NCBI GenBank assembly: GCA_003552925.1 | Contig: PUOX01000064.1 | Location: 1-64,000 of the forward strand | DNA from: Mollicutes bacterium | Lineage (GTDB): Bacteria; Bacillota_I; Bacilli_A; Izemoplasmatales; Izemoplasmataceae | Reading direction: 5' to 3' | DNA: 64,000 nucleotides | Shown here: positions 6,498-35,500 of the stretch, piece after piece | Layout of the letters: the number at the start of each line of letters is the position of its first letter | Numbering within the stretch: position 1 is the stretch's first letter | Notes under the pieces: model-generated | Databases searched by the model: none | What the model was told of the DNA's origin: nothing | What the model saw: only the letters and a program-made list of their open reading frames with translations | Program-made: the position numbers and the translations under genes

Positions 6498-7463
6498 CTA
6501 TATCACATCCGCAAAGAGTCCGTATATGTACTCTTCAATGTCGAAATGCTCCAAATCGTCCACCTTTTCGCCTAAGCCCACCATCTTGACGGGGACGCCG
6601 ATGGTCTCGCGAATCGCAAGGGCGATGCCTCCCTTTGCCGTGCCGTCCAGTTTTGTCAGCACAACGCCGGTAAGACGAGTCACTTCATTGAAAATTTTCG
6701 CCTGGGATAGTCCGTTTTGGCCGGTCGTCGCATCGACAACCAAAAGTGTCTCTTGAGGAGCCCCTTTGATTTCCCGGCCAATGACGCGGTGGATTTTGCC
6801 GAGTTCCTCCATGAGATGTTTCTTGTTTTGTAGACGGCCCGCCGTGTCGCATAGCAACACGTCGATGTCATGTTTCTTCGCGTAAGCGATGGCATCATAC
6901 ATGACGCTTGAAGGGTCGCTGCCTTTGGGTTTCTCAAAAAATTCGCTTCCCGTTCTTTCGCTCCATATCCTCAACTGATTAATCGCACCGGCACGAAACG
7001 TGTCTCCGGCGACCATCATGACTTTTTTGCCTTTTTTCTGCAGAAGGTAGGCGACTTTTCCTATCGTCGTCGTTTTTCCAACACCGTTCACACCAACGAA
7101 CAGTAGCACGGAAAGACCTTCGCTCAATTGCAAGTTCGTGTCCACGATTTCGTCTTTGACATAACGCTTGAACATTTCTTCGACGATGACCTCTCGTAAG
7201 TCGTGTGCGTCTTGAATCTTTTTCACTTCTACGGTGTTGCGCAAGTGCTCAACCAAGGACAAGACCACATCGACACCCATATCGGCCGTAATGAAGAGTT
7301 CTTCAATATCCTCGAACAGTTCTTCGGTAATTGGCGCGCCGCTTTGCAAAAGATCGTCTAGGCGGTTGAAGACGTTTTCGCGGGTCTTTTCCATACCGAT
7401 TCTATATTTTTGTGCCTGTTGTTTGCGTTTTTTGCTTTGAAACAAGTTTTTGATGAACCCCAC
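6498..7463 (-). CDS. ftsY: Signal recognition particle receptor FtsY
   Basis: 321 residues from a GTG at 7463 (protein begins GFIKNLFQSKKRKQQ) with AGGTGAGG just upstream. The basic N-terminus replaces the long acidic A domain of enterobacteria. The NG domain shows GVNGVGKTTTIGK (P-loop), DTAGRLQNK (G3), TKLDGTAKGG (G4) and GLGEKVDDLEHFD. The same frame extends upstream to 7601, but that extension crosses a terminator and the gene's own promoter, so it is not coding. Confidence 0.95.
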   Translation of the reverse strand: MGFIKNLFQSKKRKQQAQKYRIGMEKTRENVFNRLDDLLQSGAPITEELFEDIEELFITADMGVDVVLSLVEHLRNTVEVKKIQDAHDLREVIVEEMFKRYVKDEIVDTNLQLSEGLSVLLFVGVNGVGKTTTIGKVAYLLQKKGKKVMMVAGDTFRAGAINQLRIWSERTGSEFFEKPKGSDPSSVMYDAIAYAKKHDIDVLLCDTAGRLQNKKHLMEELGKIHRVIGREIKGAPQETLLVVDATTGQNGLSQAKIFNEVTRLTGVVLTKLDGTAKGGIALAIRETIGVPVKMVGLGEKVDDLEHFDIEEYIYGLFADVI

Positions 7464-7494: not shown

Positions 7495-7522
7495 ATTATA
7501 ACATAATTCCAACCATAACCAA
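7495..7522 (-). promoter_or_regulatory. Promoter of the ftsY-ylxM-ffh operon
   Basis: TATAAT (7495-7500) has an upstream TGT (extended -10) and TTGGTT (7517-7522) at 16 bases. It lies directly after the U-tract of the upstream RNA candidate. Confidence 0.65.
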
Positions 7523-7575
7523 ATAAAAAACCCCTTACAAAGGGAAATCCGCCTTGCGGCGGATTAAGGAAGGGG
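7521..7575 (-). terminator. Intrinsic terminator of the RNA candidate upstream of ftsY
   Basis: A strong 8-bp hairpin (7546-7553 with 7558-7565, loop TTGC on the + strand) is flanked by CCCCTT/AAGGGG pairing (7531-7536, 7570-7575). The transcript then has TTTTTTATTT (7530-7521). Confidence 0.75.
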
Positions 7576-7638
7576 ATGTGTGAATAGCAAGTATTCACCA
7601 TGCTATGTAAGGGATAAGTTGCAACCTTTCAGTTGCAA
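7523..7638 (-). ncRNA. Candidate small structured RNA between topA and ftsY
   Basis: A near-consensus promoter (7643-7671) and an intrinsic terminator bound a transcript of about 115 bases. Predicted helices in transcript order are: TTGCAAC/GTTGCAA (7638-7632 with 7625-7619, 6-base loop); CCCTTACA/TGTAAGGG (7613-7606 with 7539-7532), closing the molecule; GTGAATA/TATTCAC (7598-7592 with 7586-7580), with an alternative ATAGCA/TGCTAT pairing; and the GC-rich terminator hairpin. It lacks the GGAAG/GNRA SRP-RNA signature and matches no family I know. It could instead be an attenuated leader of ftsY. The remainder of this gap (7672-7779) holds a CCTCTC/GAGAGG hairpin and no gene. Confidence 0.6.
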
Positions 7639-7642
7639 GTAA

Positions 7643-7671
7643 ATAGTATCACATTTACAAATGCTTGTCAA
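7643..7671 (-). promoter_or_regulatory. Strong promoter of the RNA candidate
   Basis: Perfect -35 TTGACA (7666-7671), a 17-base spacer, and -10 TACTAT (7643-7648) preceded by TGA. Confidence 0.8.
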
Positions 7672-7779: not shown

Positions 7780-9831
7780 TTATTCGTCCGCACACTTTTT
7801 GTTGTTGCAGACGACGGACCCGTCGTCAAGTTCCACCATTAAGTCGTCGCATCCTTTGCATGCGTCGCCGGTCGGTTTGCCGCGTAGAATGTTTTTGCAT
7901 TTGGGGAAGTTGTCGCAGGCAAAAAACGTTTTGCCTTTGTTGCGGCCTCTTTTGGCCTCGCGCTCCACGATTTCTCCCTTTTTGCATTTCGGGCAAGTCA
8001 ATCCGGTCTTGTTGGGTTCTTTTTTCTTGTCGTTTTTGATGTATTTGCAATCTGGAAAGCCGCTGCAAGCCTCAAACGTTCCATAACGGCTGGTGCGGTA
8101 CACCATGTCGCGTCCGCACTTAGGACATTTTTCGCCCGTGAGTTTCGGCGCGGCTTTCTCCATTTCCTTGTTCGCCTTTTCAACAAGTGGAATGAAACGA
8201 TTGTAGAAGTCCGCAATGATTTCTAGATGATCGATGTCCTCGTTGGCGATGTCGTCCAGCACGTCTTCCATTTGCGCCGTATAATCCACACTGATGATGC
8301 GGGCGAAATACTGTTCAAGCTTCTCGATGGTCAACCGACCTTGTTCGGTGGGCGTGAATTTCTTCTCCTTGGTGGTGACGTAGCGGCGTTTTTTCAACGT
8401 CGAAACGGTTTGCGAGTAAGTGCTCGGCCGACCGATGCCCTTTTCTTCCATTTCCTTGATGAGCCGCGCTTCTGTGAAACGGGCGGGCGGAGAAGTGAAG
8501 TGCTGGCTTTTTTCAACCTTTTTCGCATTGAGCGTATCGCCTTCTTTGAATTCCGGAAGGTTGCTGGTCTCGATGCTTTGATAGGGACCGTAAACTTTCA
8601 AATAACCCTCGAAAAGCATCTCTTGCGCCTTGGCTTTGAATTCCGCATCGGCGTTTTTCAAAATCATCGTGGTGTTTTTCAGCACGGCCGGACGCATGAG
8701 CGCGGCGAGCGCCCTGGCATAAATCATCTTGTAAAGCCGGTATTCGTCGTCTTTCAAATAAGGTTTCACTTTTTTGGGATGGTTTCGGATATCCGTAGGA
8801 CGGATGGCTTCGTGGGCGTCTTGCGCGCCTTCTTTGGTTTGGGATTTGCGGTAGCGTCCGACGTAGTCTTCGCCGTATTCTTTGCGGATATGGCTTTTGG
8901 CGGGTTTGATGAACGAATCGGAAAGTCGGGTCGAGTCTGTACGCATATAGGTAATCAAACCAACGGTTTCACTCTTCAAATCGATGCCTTCGTACAATTT
9001 CTGGGCGGTCATCATCGTGCGCTGCCCGCTCATGTTGAGGCGGGTCGAGGCCTCTTGCTGCAACGAAGAGGTGGTAAAAGGCGCTTTGGGTGCCCGGCGA
9101 CGTTCTTTGTCCTTGACAGATTGCACCTTGAAAACATCTTGTAGGCTCTTGAGCAGTTTGTCCGCCTCTTCTTCATTCTTCAAAGAAGGTTTGCGTTTCT
9201 TGATTTTGCTGAGTTCCGCGTCGAACTCATTGAAATGCGCGGTGATTTTCCAATATTCTTCGGGTGTGAACGCTTCAATCTCCCGTTCACGGTCGACAAT
9301 CATCTTAAGCGCCGCACTTTGCACTCGACCTGCGGATTTGGACTTGATTTTGCTTTGTAGAAGCTTGCTTAGTTTAAAGCCGATGATACGGTCCAAGATT
9401 CTTCTGGTCTCTTGGGAGGAGACCAAGTGCAAATCGATATCCCTGGGGTTTTCAAACGCTTGTTGGACGGCATCTTTCGTGACCTCGTTAAAAATGACTC
9501 GGTGGGTAGGCTTCTTGTCGCTTTCCAACTCCAAAACCTCTTTGAGGTGCCAACTGATGGCTTCGCCTTCCCTGTCGGGGTCCGTTGCCAAAAAAACCGC
9601 ACTGGCTTTGTCCGCGGCTTTCTTTAAAGCGTCAATGGTTTTTTGTTTGTCGTCAAGCACCGTGTAACGGGGCTTGAAGTTGTTTTCGATGTCGAGGCCG
9701 AGGCCGCCGGTTCCGGAAATCGCTAAATCCCGGATATGGCCTTTGGACGATAGCACCTCGTAATCGTTTCCGAGGTATTGCTTGATTGTTTTGGACTTGC
9801 TCGGCGATTCGACAATGACCAGTTTGTCCAT
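7780..9831 (-). CDS. topA: DNA topoisomerase I
   Basis: A 683-residue type IA topoisomerase that relaxes negative supercoils. The Toprim domain begins DKLVIVESPSKSKTI and carries DPDREGEAISWHL (metal-binding acidic triad). The catalytic tyrosine is in GLITYMRTDSTRLSD. Three C-terminal zinc-ribbon-like modules have paired CxxC motifs (CPKCGRD, CPKCKKG, CKGCDD). The ATG at 9831 is chosen because the upstream GTG at 9840 lies inside the GGGAGTG ribosome site. Confidence 0.97.
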   Translation of the reverse strand: MDKLVIVESPSKSKTIKQYLGNDYEVLSSKGHIRDLAISGTGGLGLDIENNFKPRYTVLDDKQKTIDALKKAADKASAVFLATDPDREGEAISWHLKEVLELESDKKPTHRVIFNEVTKDAVQQAFENPRDIDLHLVSSQETRRILDRIIGFKLSKLLQSKIKSKSAGRVQSAALKMIVDREREIEAFTPEEYWKITAHFNEFDAELSKIKKRKPSLKNEEEADKLLKSLQDVFKVQSVKDKERRRAPKAPFTTSSLQQEASTRLNMSGQRTMMTAQKLYEGIDLKSETVGLITYMRTDSTRLSDSFIKPAKSHIRKEYGEDYVGRYRKSQTKEGAQDAHEAIRPTDIRNHPKKVKPYLKDDEYRLYKMIYARALAALMRPAVLKNTTMILKNADAEFKAKAQEMLFEGYLKVYGPYQSIETSNLPEFKEGDTLNAKKVEKSQHFTSPPARFTEARLIKEMEEKGIGRPSTYSQTVSTLKKRRYVTTKEKKFTPTEQGRLTIEKLEQYFARIISVDYTAQMEDVLDDIANEDIDHLEIIADFYNRFIPLVEKANKEMEKAAPKLTGEKCPKCGRDMVYRTSRYGTFEACSGFPDCKYIKNDKKKEPNKTGLTCPKCKKGEIVEREAKRGRNKGKTFFACDNFPKCKNILRGKPTGDACKGCDDLMVELDDGSVVCNNKKCADE

Positions 9832-9854
9832 AGAGTTCACTCCCGATAGGGCGT

Positions 9855-32584: not shown

Positions 32585-35500
32585 TTAGGAGTTAAAGCCG
32601 TATTTTTCTTGATAATCCTGTTCGCCCGAATCTTCAACCAAGCTCTTGCGGGCTTCGTTCTCACGGGTGTCGCGGTTGATGAGTTCGACGGAAATGCCGA
32701 GCGACTGCAGTTCGCGGGTCAACACTCTAAACGACTCCGGCAAGCTCGGTTCGGGAATGCTCTTGCCATCGACGATGGAGCGGAAGACTTTGTTTCGGCC
32801 GATGATGTCGTCGCTTTTGACGGTAAGCATCTCCTGCAAGCAGTACGCCGCGCCATAAGCCTCAAGCGCCCAGACTTCCATTTCACCGAAGCGCTGTCCG
32901 CCGTTTTGGGCTTTTCCGCCCATCGGCTGCTGGGTGACCAGGGTGTAGGGACCGACGCTGCGGGCGTGCAGCTTGTCGTCCACCATGTGGTCGAGCTTGA
33001 TCATGTGCATGACGCCGACGGCGACGTCGTTGTCGTAACGTTCGCCGGTCAATCCGGAATAAAGCGGCGTCTTCCCGTCGGGTTGCATGTTCGCTTCTTT
33101 CATGATTTCGACAAGGTCTTCGTTCTCTACGCCGTCAAAAACCGGAGTGGCGATGTGCGTGTTTAACTTTTTGGCGGCCATGCCCAAATGAATCTCCAAA
33201 ACCTGGCCGATGTTCATCCGCGAGGGAACGCCGAGCGGGTTGAGCATGATGTCGATGGGGCGTCCATCGGGAAGATAGGGCATGTCCTCTTCGGGGAGGA
33301 TTTTCGAGATGACGCCTTTGTTGCCGTGGCGTCCGGCCATCTTGTCGCCTTCGGAAATCTTCCGTTTTTGCACGATGTAGACGCGAACGACTTCGTTTGC
33401 GCCAGGTGGCAGTTCGTCGCCGGCGTCGCGTGAGAAATGCTTGACGCTTTTGACGATGCCGCCGCCCCCATGGGGGACGCGCAAGGACGTATCGCGTTGT
33501 TCATGCGCTTTTTTGCCGAAGATGGCGCCAAGGAGACGGTCTTCGGGCGTTTCTTCGGTAAATCCTTTCGGAGTCACTTTGCCGACGAGGATGTCACCCT
33601 CTTTGACTTCGGCACCAGGAATAATGATGCCGTTTTCGTCTAGGAATCGGCGGCCGCGTTCTCCGACATTCGGAACTTCGCGGGTGATTTCTTCTTTACC
33701 AAGCTTGGTGTCGCGGGCTTCGCAATCGTATTTTTCTATGTGGATGGAAGTGTAGACGTCTTCTTTGACGAGGCGTTCGCTCAGGATGACGGCGTCTTCG
33801 TAGTTGTAGCCGTTCCAGGTCATAAACGCAACGGTGACGTTACGGCCGAGGGCGAGCTCGCCTTCGTCCATGGACGGTCCGTCGGTGATGATGTCGCCTT
33901 CTTTGACCTCTTCACCGGTCCTCACAATCGGACGGTGGTTGAAGCATGTGCTTTGGTTGCTTCGTTCGAATTTCTCAAGAGGATAGGTCTTGCGGGTGCC
34001 GTCTTCGTTTTTGATGATGATAGTGCGCGAGTCGACGTATTCAACGACGCCGTCTTTTTGGGCGAGCAAGCAAGCGCCGCTATCTTTGGCGGCTTTGTAT
34101 TCAATGCCCGTGCCCACAAAAGGTGCTTCGGGCTTAAGCAATGGGATGGCCTGGCGTTGCATGTTGGCGCCCATTAGCGCACGGTTGGCGTCGTCGTGTT
34201 CAAGGAAGGGGATGGACGCCGTCGAAACGGAGACAATCTGCTTCGGGGAAACGTCGATTAAGTCGATTTCCTCTTTGGCGTGCATTTTGGTCTCGCCCAT
34301 GTGGCGGGCGACAACGTGGTCGTCGATGATGCGCTTGTCGTCGTCAAGGTTGATGTTGGCCTGTCCGATGACGTATTCTTCTTCTTGGTCGGCGGTTAGG
34401 AAGATGTGTTCTTCGGTGATGAACAGCTCGACGCTGCCGTCGTCTTGTGGAACCCGTTTCACCTTGAGATACGGTGTTTCGATCAAACCGTACTGGTTGA
34501 CTTGCACGTAGGTGGATAACGAATTGATCAGGCCGATGTTTTGGCCTTCCGGTGTTTCAATCGGACAAATTCGTCCGTAATGGGAGAAATGGACGTCGCG
34601 CACTTCAAAGCCGGCGCGGTCGCGAGTGAGGCCCCCCGGGCCAAGCGCGGAAATGCGGCGTTTATGCGTCAACTCGTCAAGCGGGTTGGTTTGCGACATG
34701 AACTGCGAAAGCTGAGAGGAGCCGAAGAACTCCTTCAAGGATGACGTCAACGGGCGGATGTTGATCAGGTTTTGCGGAGTCATCTCGGAAGTGTCCCGTG
34801 TCGACATGCGGTCCATGACGTTCTTTTCTAACTTGGAAAGGCCAATGCGGAATTGATTCTTTAGCAGCTCGCCAATCAAGCGGAGTCGGCGGTTTCCAAG
34901 GTGGTCGATGTCGTCTAAACGTCCGTAATTGTCCATGAGGTTGAGGTAATAGCTGACGCTGGCGATGATGTCGGAGGGCGTGAGATGTTCCGCCGTCTCG
35001 GTGGAATCGTTGCCGATGATGCGGACGTCGATTTCCTCGTCTTCTTTGTTGCGGTGTTTGATGTCAAGGATTTCCACACGCGCCAAATCGAGTTGCAGTT
35101 CTTCTTTCGAAAGGGTGTCCTCGATGGAAGAAAGCATCTCTTCATAAGCGGTGTTTCCTTCTTTTTCGATGAAAGACTCTTTGTTCAAGCCTTGCTTCAT
35201 CAAATACCCCGCGGCGTACTCTTCGGGGGTTTTGAACGATTGGGCCTTGATTTGTTCAAGCTTTTCATCGTCGCTTAGATGATTCAAATAAGGATTGGCG
35301 TCAAGTACGTCCTTTTGTTCGTGGAAATCGTACTCCAAATCATGGGCCAAAACGCCGGGAATCGTGTGGGTGAAAGCGTGGCGGTTTTCATCGAGAATCT
35401 TCTCGATGTCGCGGTCGATGGTTTGATTCGCCGAAACGAGCACTTCGCCGGTTTCGGGGTCGACTAGGTCTTCCGCCAAAGTTTTGCCGCGAACATGGTT

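Follow-up and report, generated by a model that had tools for sequence, protein, structure and literature searches.

What occupies the gap between topA and ftsY in the Candidatus Izemoplasma genome from which the 64,000-nt stretch of DNA analysed here (the window) was taken? Izemoplasma is a wall-less sediment bacterium, intermediate between the Firmicutes and the wall-less Mollicutes. An initial annotation proposed an independent RNA gene, framed by a near-consensus promoter and a terminator with a U-tract, or else a switch feeding the SRP operon. On the minus strand, TTGACA is followed after a 17-nt spacer by a TG-extended TACTAT, and the promoter scan scored this near-consensus σA-type promoter at 10 out of 12. 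Among 41 housekeeping copies of the RNA, TTGACA was exact in 39 and the TG-extended -10 element was present in all. The terminator consists of a CCCTT/AAGGG stem with a T6 run. Directly past it lies a separate ftsY promoter, TG-TATAAT, which had also been annotated and which relatives have as well; beyond ftsY are a ylxM-like gene and then ffh. Promoter and terminator could thus both be read as annotated. Together with covarying hairpins and conservation in the family, they bear out the prediction that the window holds an autonomous small RNA gene, and the covariance model that we built matched this copy at 7543-7637 with 106.7 bits.

Features of the small RNA locus, listed from topA to ftsY (positions in the window)
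Feature	Position	Strand	Basis or observation
topA, upstream neighbor	7780..9840	-	
-35 element, TTGACA	7666..7671	-	Sequence reading and promoter scan
-10 element, TACTAT with TG extension	7643..7648	-	Sequence reading and promoter scan
Small RNA gene, predicted transcript of ~114 nt	7523..7636	-	Promoter and terminator positions
Hairpin H1	7619..7638	-	Both sides changed in 6/7 pairs; pairing in 99.6% of cells
Linker M1, ACUUAUCCCUUACAUAGCAUG, first proposed seed	7599..7619	-	Invariant or nearly so in alignments A1/A2
Hairpin H2	7580..7598	-	All cells paired (100%), with one covarying pair
Linker M2, ACAUCCCCUUCCUUA, second proposed seed	7565..7579	-	Near-invariant in alignments A1/A2
Hairpin H3, GNRA tetraloop	7546..7565	-	8/8 pairs changed on both sides; 100% paired
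Terminator stem and T-run (approximate)	7525..7544	-	Sequence reading, promoter scan, fold, ensemble pairing
-10 element, TATAAT, of the separate ftsY promoter	7495..7500	-	Sequence, repeated in relatives
ftsY, downstream neighbor	6498..7463	-	

The RNA of the window folds with a free energy of -42.8 kcal/mol (z = -5.3), and none of 200 shuffled sequences was as stable. All four perfect helices of the initial annotation are present in the sequence: H1 (TTGCAACT/GGTTGCAA), H2 (GTGAATA/TATTCAC), H3 (AATCCGCC/GGCGGATT), and a long-range helix between CCCTTACA (7613-7606) and TGTAAGGG (7539-7532). In the structure alignment of 40 sequences (A2), 99.9% of cells are paired in the three hairpins, both sides have changed in 15 of their 25 pairs, and the covariation score was reached by 0 of 500 shuffles; such compensatory changes indicate that the three hairpins are under selection. 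The H3 loops are GNRA in all copies, and H2 is exchanged for another stem in phage copies. Stems, loops, and flanks vary while the two C-rich linkers, AUCCCUUACAUAGCAUG (M1) and ACAUCCCCUUCCUUA (M2), stay almost invariant and mostly unpaired, with mean unpaired probabilities in the ensemble across copies of 0.79 for the M1 seed and 0.75 for M2. M1 can be written as (A)CUUAUCCCUUACAUAGCAUG, and neither linker varies to any extent among host, phage, or plasmid copies. The conserved core, as judged from these alignments, is therefore three hairpins plus two unpaired linkers, the latter unremarked in the initial annotation.

A first search of 60 relatives found the RNA at E < 1e-20 in 34 of the 36 other genomes of the family. 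With the covariance model, the RNA was recovered from 47 of 49 genomes of the family, and both genomes without a match were assemblies of 67-69% completeness. The class-wide survey covered 392 genomes with a sequence pattern and 395 with the model. The usual site is the topA-ftsY locus, with ftsY as the neighbor at 37 fetched loci, and the RNA has been retained there vertically. The distribution and covariation answer the call in the initial annotation for conservation in relatives. Several family genomes carry two to four dispersed copies. Outside the family, the class-wide survey found the RNA scattered in f4, f20, f21, and f10, and family f22 gave ten weak to moderate covariance-model matches (E 1e-10 to 1e-3). 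Seven dispersed paralogues (L116, L118, L119, and L121-L124) follow a related gene of up to ~990 aa at a distance of 47-100 nt; this gene had no Pfam match. Two divergent paralogues, G001:C28:3658-3781 (L115) and L132, have an altered M1 and an intact M2, which suggests that they could be specialized siblings.

Copies were also found on seven viral contigs and on a 93-kb plasmid of Tenericutes bacterium MO-XQ. Most of these mobile copies, together with copies in f1, f3, and f4 genomes, lie 31-40 nt after the second of twin large serine recombinases with Resolvase and Recombinase domains, and these recombinase-associated copies are near tRNA-like sequence. The surrounding genes form temperate-phage modules (replication initiation, antirepressor, and integrase), and a partial open reading frame beside the L405 copy looks GroEL-like. 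Near-identical copies with almost the same flanks (L128, L129, L130, and L131) are shared by three members of the family and a genome of another family, which implies recent horizontal transfer. In the mobile copies, the H2 stem is swapped (GUGUGU/ACACAC) and M1 and M2 are kept. One phage copy, L405:800-887, has an extra hairpin inside M1, between CCCUUAC and AUAGCAUG, and the H2 loop of L134 contains a long insertion. When the phage stretches were scanned, no pairing site was found near translation starts apart from the RNA copy itself.

Rfam scans of three copies, at the gathering thresholds and at E values up to 10, gave only sub-threshold chance matches and no accepted one, and the initial annotation had likewise assigned the RNA to no known family. 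The best match, anti-hemB (24.7 bits), aligned mostly to the downstream terminator of a paralogue and was dismissed. RsaE/RoxS (RF01820) of Bacillus and Staphylococcus is similarly a small stand-alone RNA, with several C-rich regions able to pair with Shine-Dalgarno regions (PMC4409812). It too is conserved across genera. M1 and M2 are likewise C-rich, conserved, and mostly unpaired. As to pairing with ribosome binding sites, a complementary site was seen in the ATPase leaders of one genus (see below), with start sites unenriched genome-wide. However, the locus and the linkers differ; paralogue L119 scored 16.6 bits against a gathering threshold of 79, the window copy had no RF01820 match up to E 10, and RsaE was detected in 0 of 41 relatives with a positive B. 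subtilis control. To our knowledge, RsaE/RoxS does not occur on phages beside integrases. The LhrC family of Listeria comprises a number of siblings in which C-rich pairing motifs are repeated. Sibling copies and C-rich motifs are also features of the Izemoplasma RNA, but its sequence is different, it has a single housekeeping locus plus phage copies, and the Rfam scans listed no match to the LhrC model, whether at the gathering threshold or with E values up to 10. SRP RNA (RF00169) comes to mind because the gene adjoins SRP pathway genes here; it had been set aside in the initial annotation, rightly in that RF00169 has no match at the locus and the genome has its own SRP RNA elsewhere (G000:C44:100037-100131, 67 bits). 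Like 6S RNA (RF00013), the RNA is small and presumably abundant, but it lacks the long bulged hairpin, and RF00013 did not match at the locus; a weak sub-threshold 6S candidate was found on another contig (G000:C26). By analogy, the mode of action is most probably like that of RoxS/RsaE or LhrC, with membership in neither family.

Antisense pairing was tested in the complete genome of a relative, G027. Hybridization energies and counts of 8-10-mer complements at start sites equaled those of shuffles, with no genome-wide enrichment, so a global anti-Shine-Dalgarno role was discarded; sites combining a seed, a Shine-Dalgarno sequence, and ATG were about as numerous as in a reversed-pattern control. 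The longest M1 complement anywhere in G027 was 13 nt and lay 34-22 nt before the start of a heavy-metal P-type ATPase gene; this leader is in L230, 5' of 5198 on the minus strand, and arsR follows the ATPase gene. Within ATPase leaders, TGTAAGGGA, which is complementary to M1, was kept in all four genomes of one genus, 20-23 nt before the ATG, and the leaders could not otherwise be aligned, the 25 nt preceding TGTAAGGGA agreeing at only 4-9 positions. For two of the four genomes, this was the only seed-Shine-Dalgarno-ATG site found genome-wide. ATPase leaders in other genera were short and had no TGTAAGGGA site. Because the target was chosen by scanning G027 and then checked in three congeners, it is the conservation among congeners that provides the independent part of the evidence. 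The metal P-type ATPase-arsR operon is accordingly put forward as the best candidate target, in that one genus only.

Other complementary sites fared less well. The longest M2 complement in G027, 12 nt located 21 nt ahead of the start of a transporter permease gene, also falls in coding sequence. A 13-nt M2 complement at 34202-34214 (+) of the window is antisense to rpoB and was judged a chance match, and comparison of ortholog target pairs among G027, the partial genome G021, and the window yielded none that was convincing; the potC site coincides with a conserved coding stretch. A flotillin-like gene is a possible second target: its leader (G027:C1:741488-741525) has TGTAAGGGATAA directly before an intrinsic-terminator-like hairpin.

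The RNA is probably a trans-acting antisense small RNA, a prediction in which the pairing is inferred. The linker cores, UCCCUUAC in M1 and CCCCUUCC in M2, would pair with purine-rich stretches beside ribosome binding sites and lower translation of the target mRNAs, the leading candidate being the heavy-metal P-type ATPase-arsR operon of the one genus. The ATPase-leader complement and the retention of TGTAAGGGA in that genus make translational repression beside the ribosome site the best explanation. As a stand-alone conserved gene with a promoter and a terminator, it fits the general class of trans-acting small RNAs, and hairpin covariation, invariant and mostly unpaired linkers, presence across nearly the whole family, and the sharing of the same linkers by phage, plasmid, and host copies all favor antisense action. 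Against it, the linkers are 15-21 nt and thus longer than usual seeds, a hairpin interrupts M1 in one phage copy, start-site complementarity is not enriched, and the ATPase site is confined to one genus. Hfq was not detected in G027, the one genome checked.

Several of these points would suit a structured or protein-bound RNA, a sponge or RNP in which the conserved linkers serve as a protein-binding site or as the core of a tertiary fold and not as antisense seeds. Linker conservation beyond usual seed length, the strictly GNRA loop of H3, the tolerated phage hairpin, and the absence of global target enrichment are all compatible with such an RNA; we nevertheless think it unlikely, as the linkers are rich in C and U and lack a conserved partner elsewhere in the RNA, the three hairpins are independent and do not form a compact junction, and the footprint in the ATPase leader matches the linker complement. 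The copies beside integrases in several phages and the plasmid, and the transfer between families, raise the question of whether the RNA derives from phages and has been kept for its part in phage interactions (control of superinfection or lysogeny), any host targets being incidental. This origin appears quite improbable given a housekeeping copy with a strong promoter at one locus in nearly all family genomes, and given that the scanned phage stretches showed no pairing site near translation starts outside the RNA copy.

We attach very little weight to a role directed at the ribosome, in which CAUCCCC of M2 could pair with GGGGAUG of 16S helix 45: the complement is present at the 16S 3' end in several family genomes, but helix 45 already engages that 16S strand in pairing, a match of 7 nt is weak, and in another family one genome that bears a copy also has a different sequence at this point of its 16S rRNA. 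G040 (L304 and L314) has two different helix-45 sequences, GTGGGGATGG and GTGCGGCTGG, reflecting either a mixed assembly or heterogeneity of the rRNA. A switch or attenuator acting in cis on ftsY and the SRP operon is hardly more credible, despite the position of the gene upstream of ftsY and the competing helices in the window lineage, where the 3' arm of the terminator can also pair with M1. The long-range helix, real in the window sequence, is not conserved: only 50.7% of cells are paired, with zero compensatory changes, and M1-tail pairing was dominant in 5 of 41 housekeeping copies, 3 with the exact TGTAAGGG tail, so that the proposed switch is at best peculiar to the lineage. A switch of this kind would be expected to have a conserved alternative helix and no separate promoter downstream, but ftsY has its own promoter past the terminator, and paralogues and mobile copies are located far from ftsY; this part of the initial annotation is not supported.

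Under the antisense interpretation, phages would use their copies of the RNA to intervene in this same network of pairings during lysogeny. More tentatively, the family's core regulatory RNA, which a plasmid and temperate phages also have at a constant position next to the integrase, its active stretches invariant and its stems swapped, might allow mobile elements to tap into or compete in the host RNA network, possibly controlling lysogeny or metal homeostasis. Our literature search returned no description of this RNA and no small RNA described for Izemoplasma; both the small RNA family and the copies on phages appear to be new, and the covariance model represents a new family ready for Rfam. 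Sharing with phages and a plasmid is an unusual trait of this RNA family, and the presence of a core RNA on phages with its active stretches unchanged permits a direct test of whether mobile elements take advantage of riboregulation in the host.
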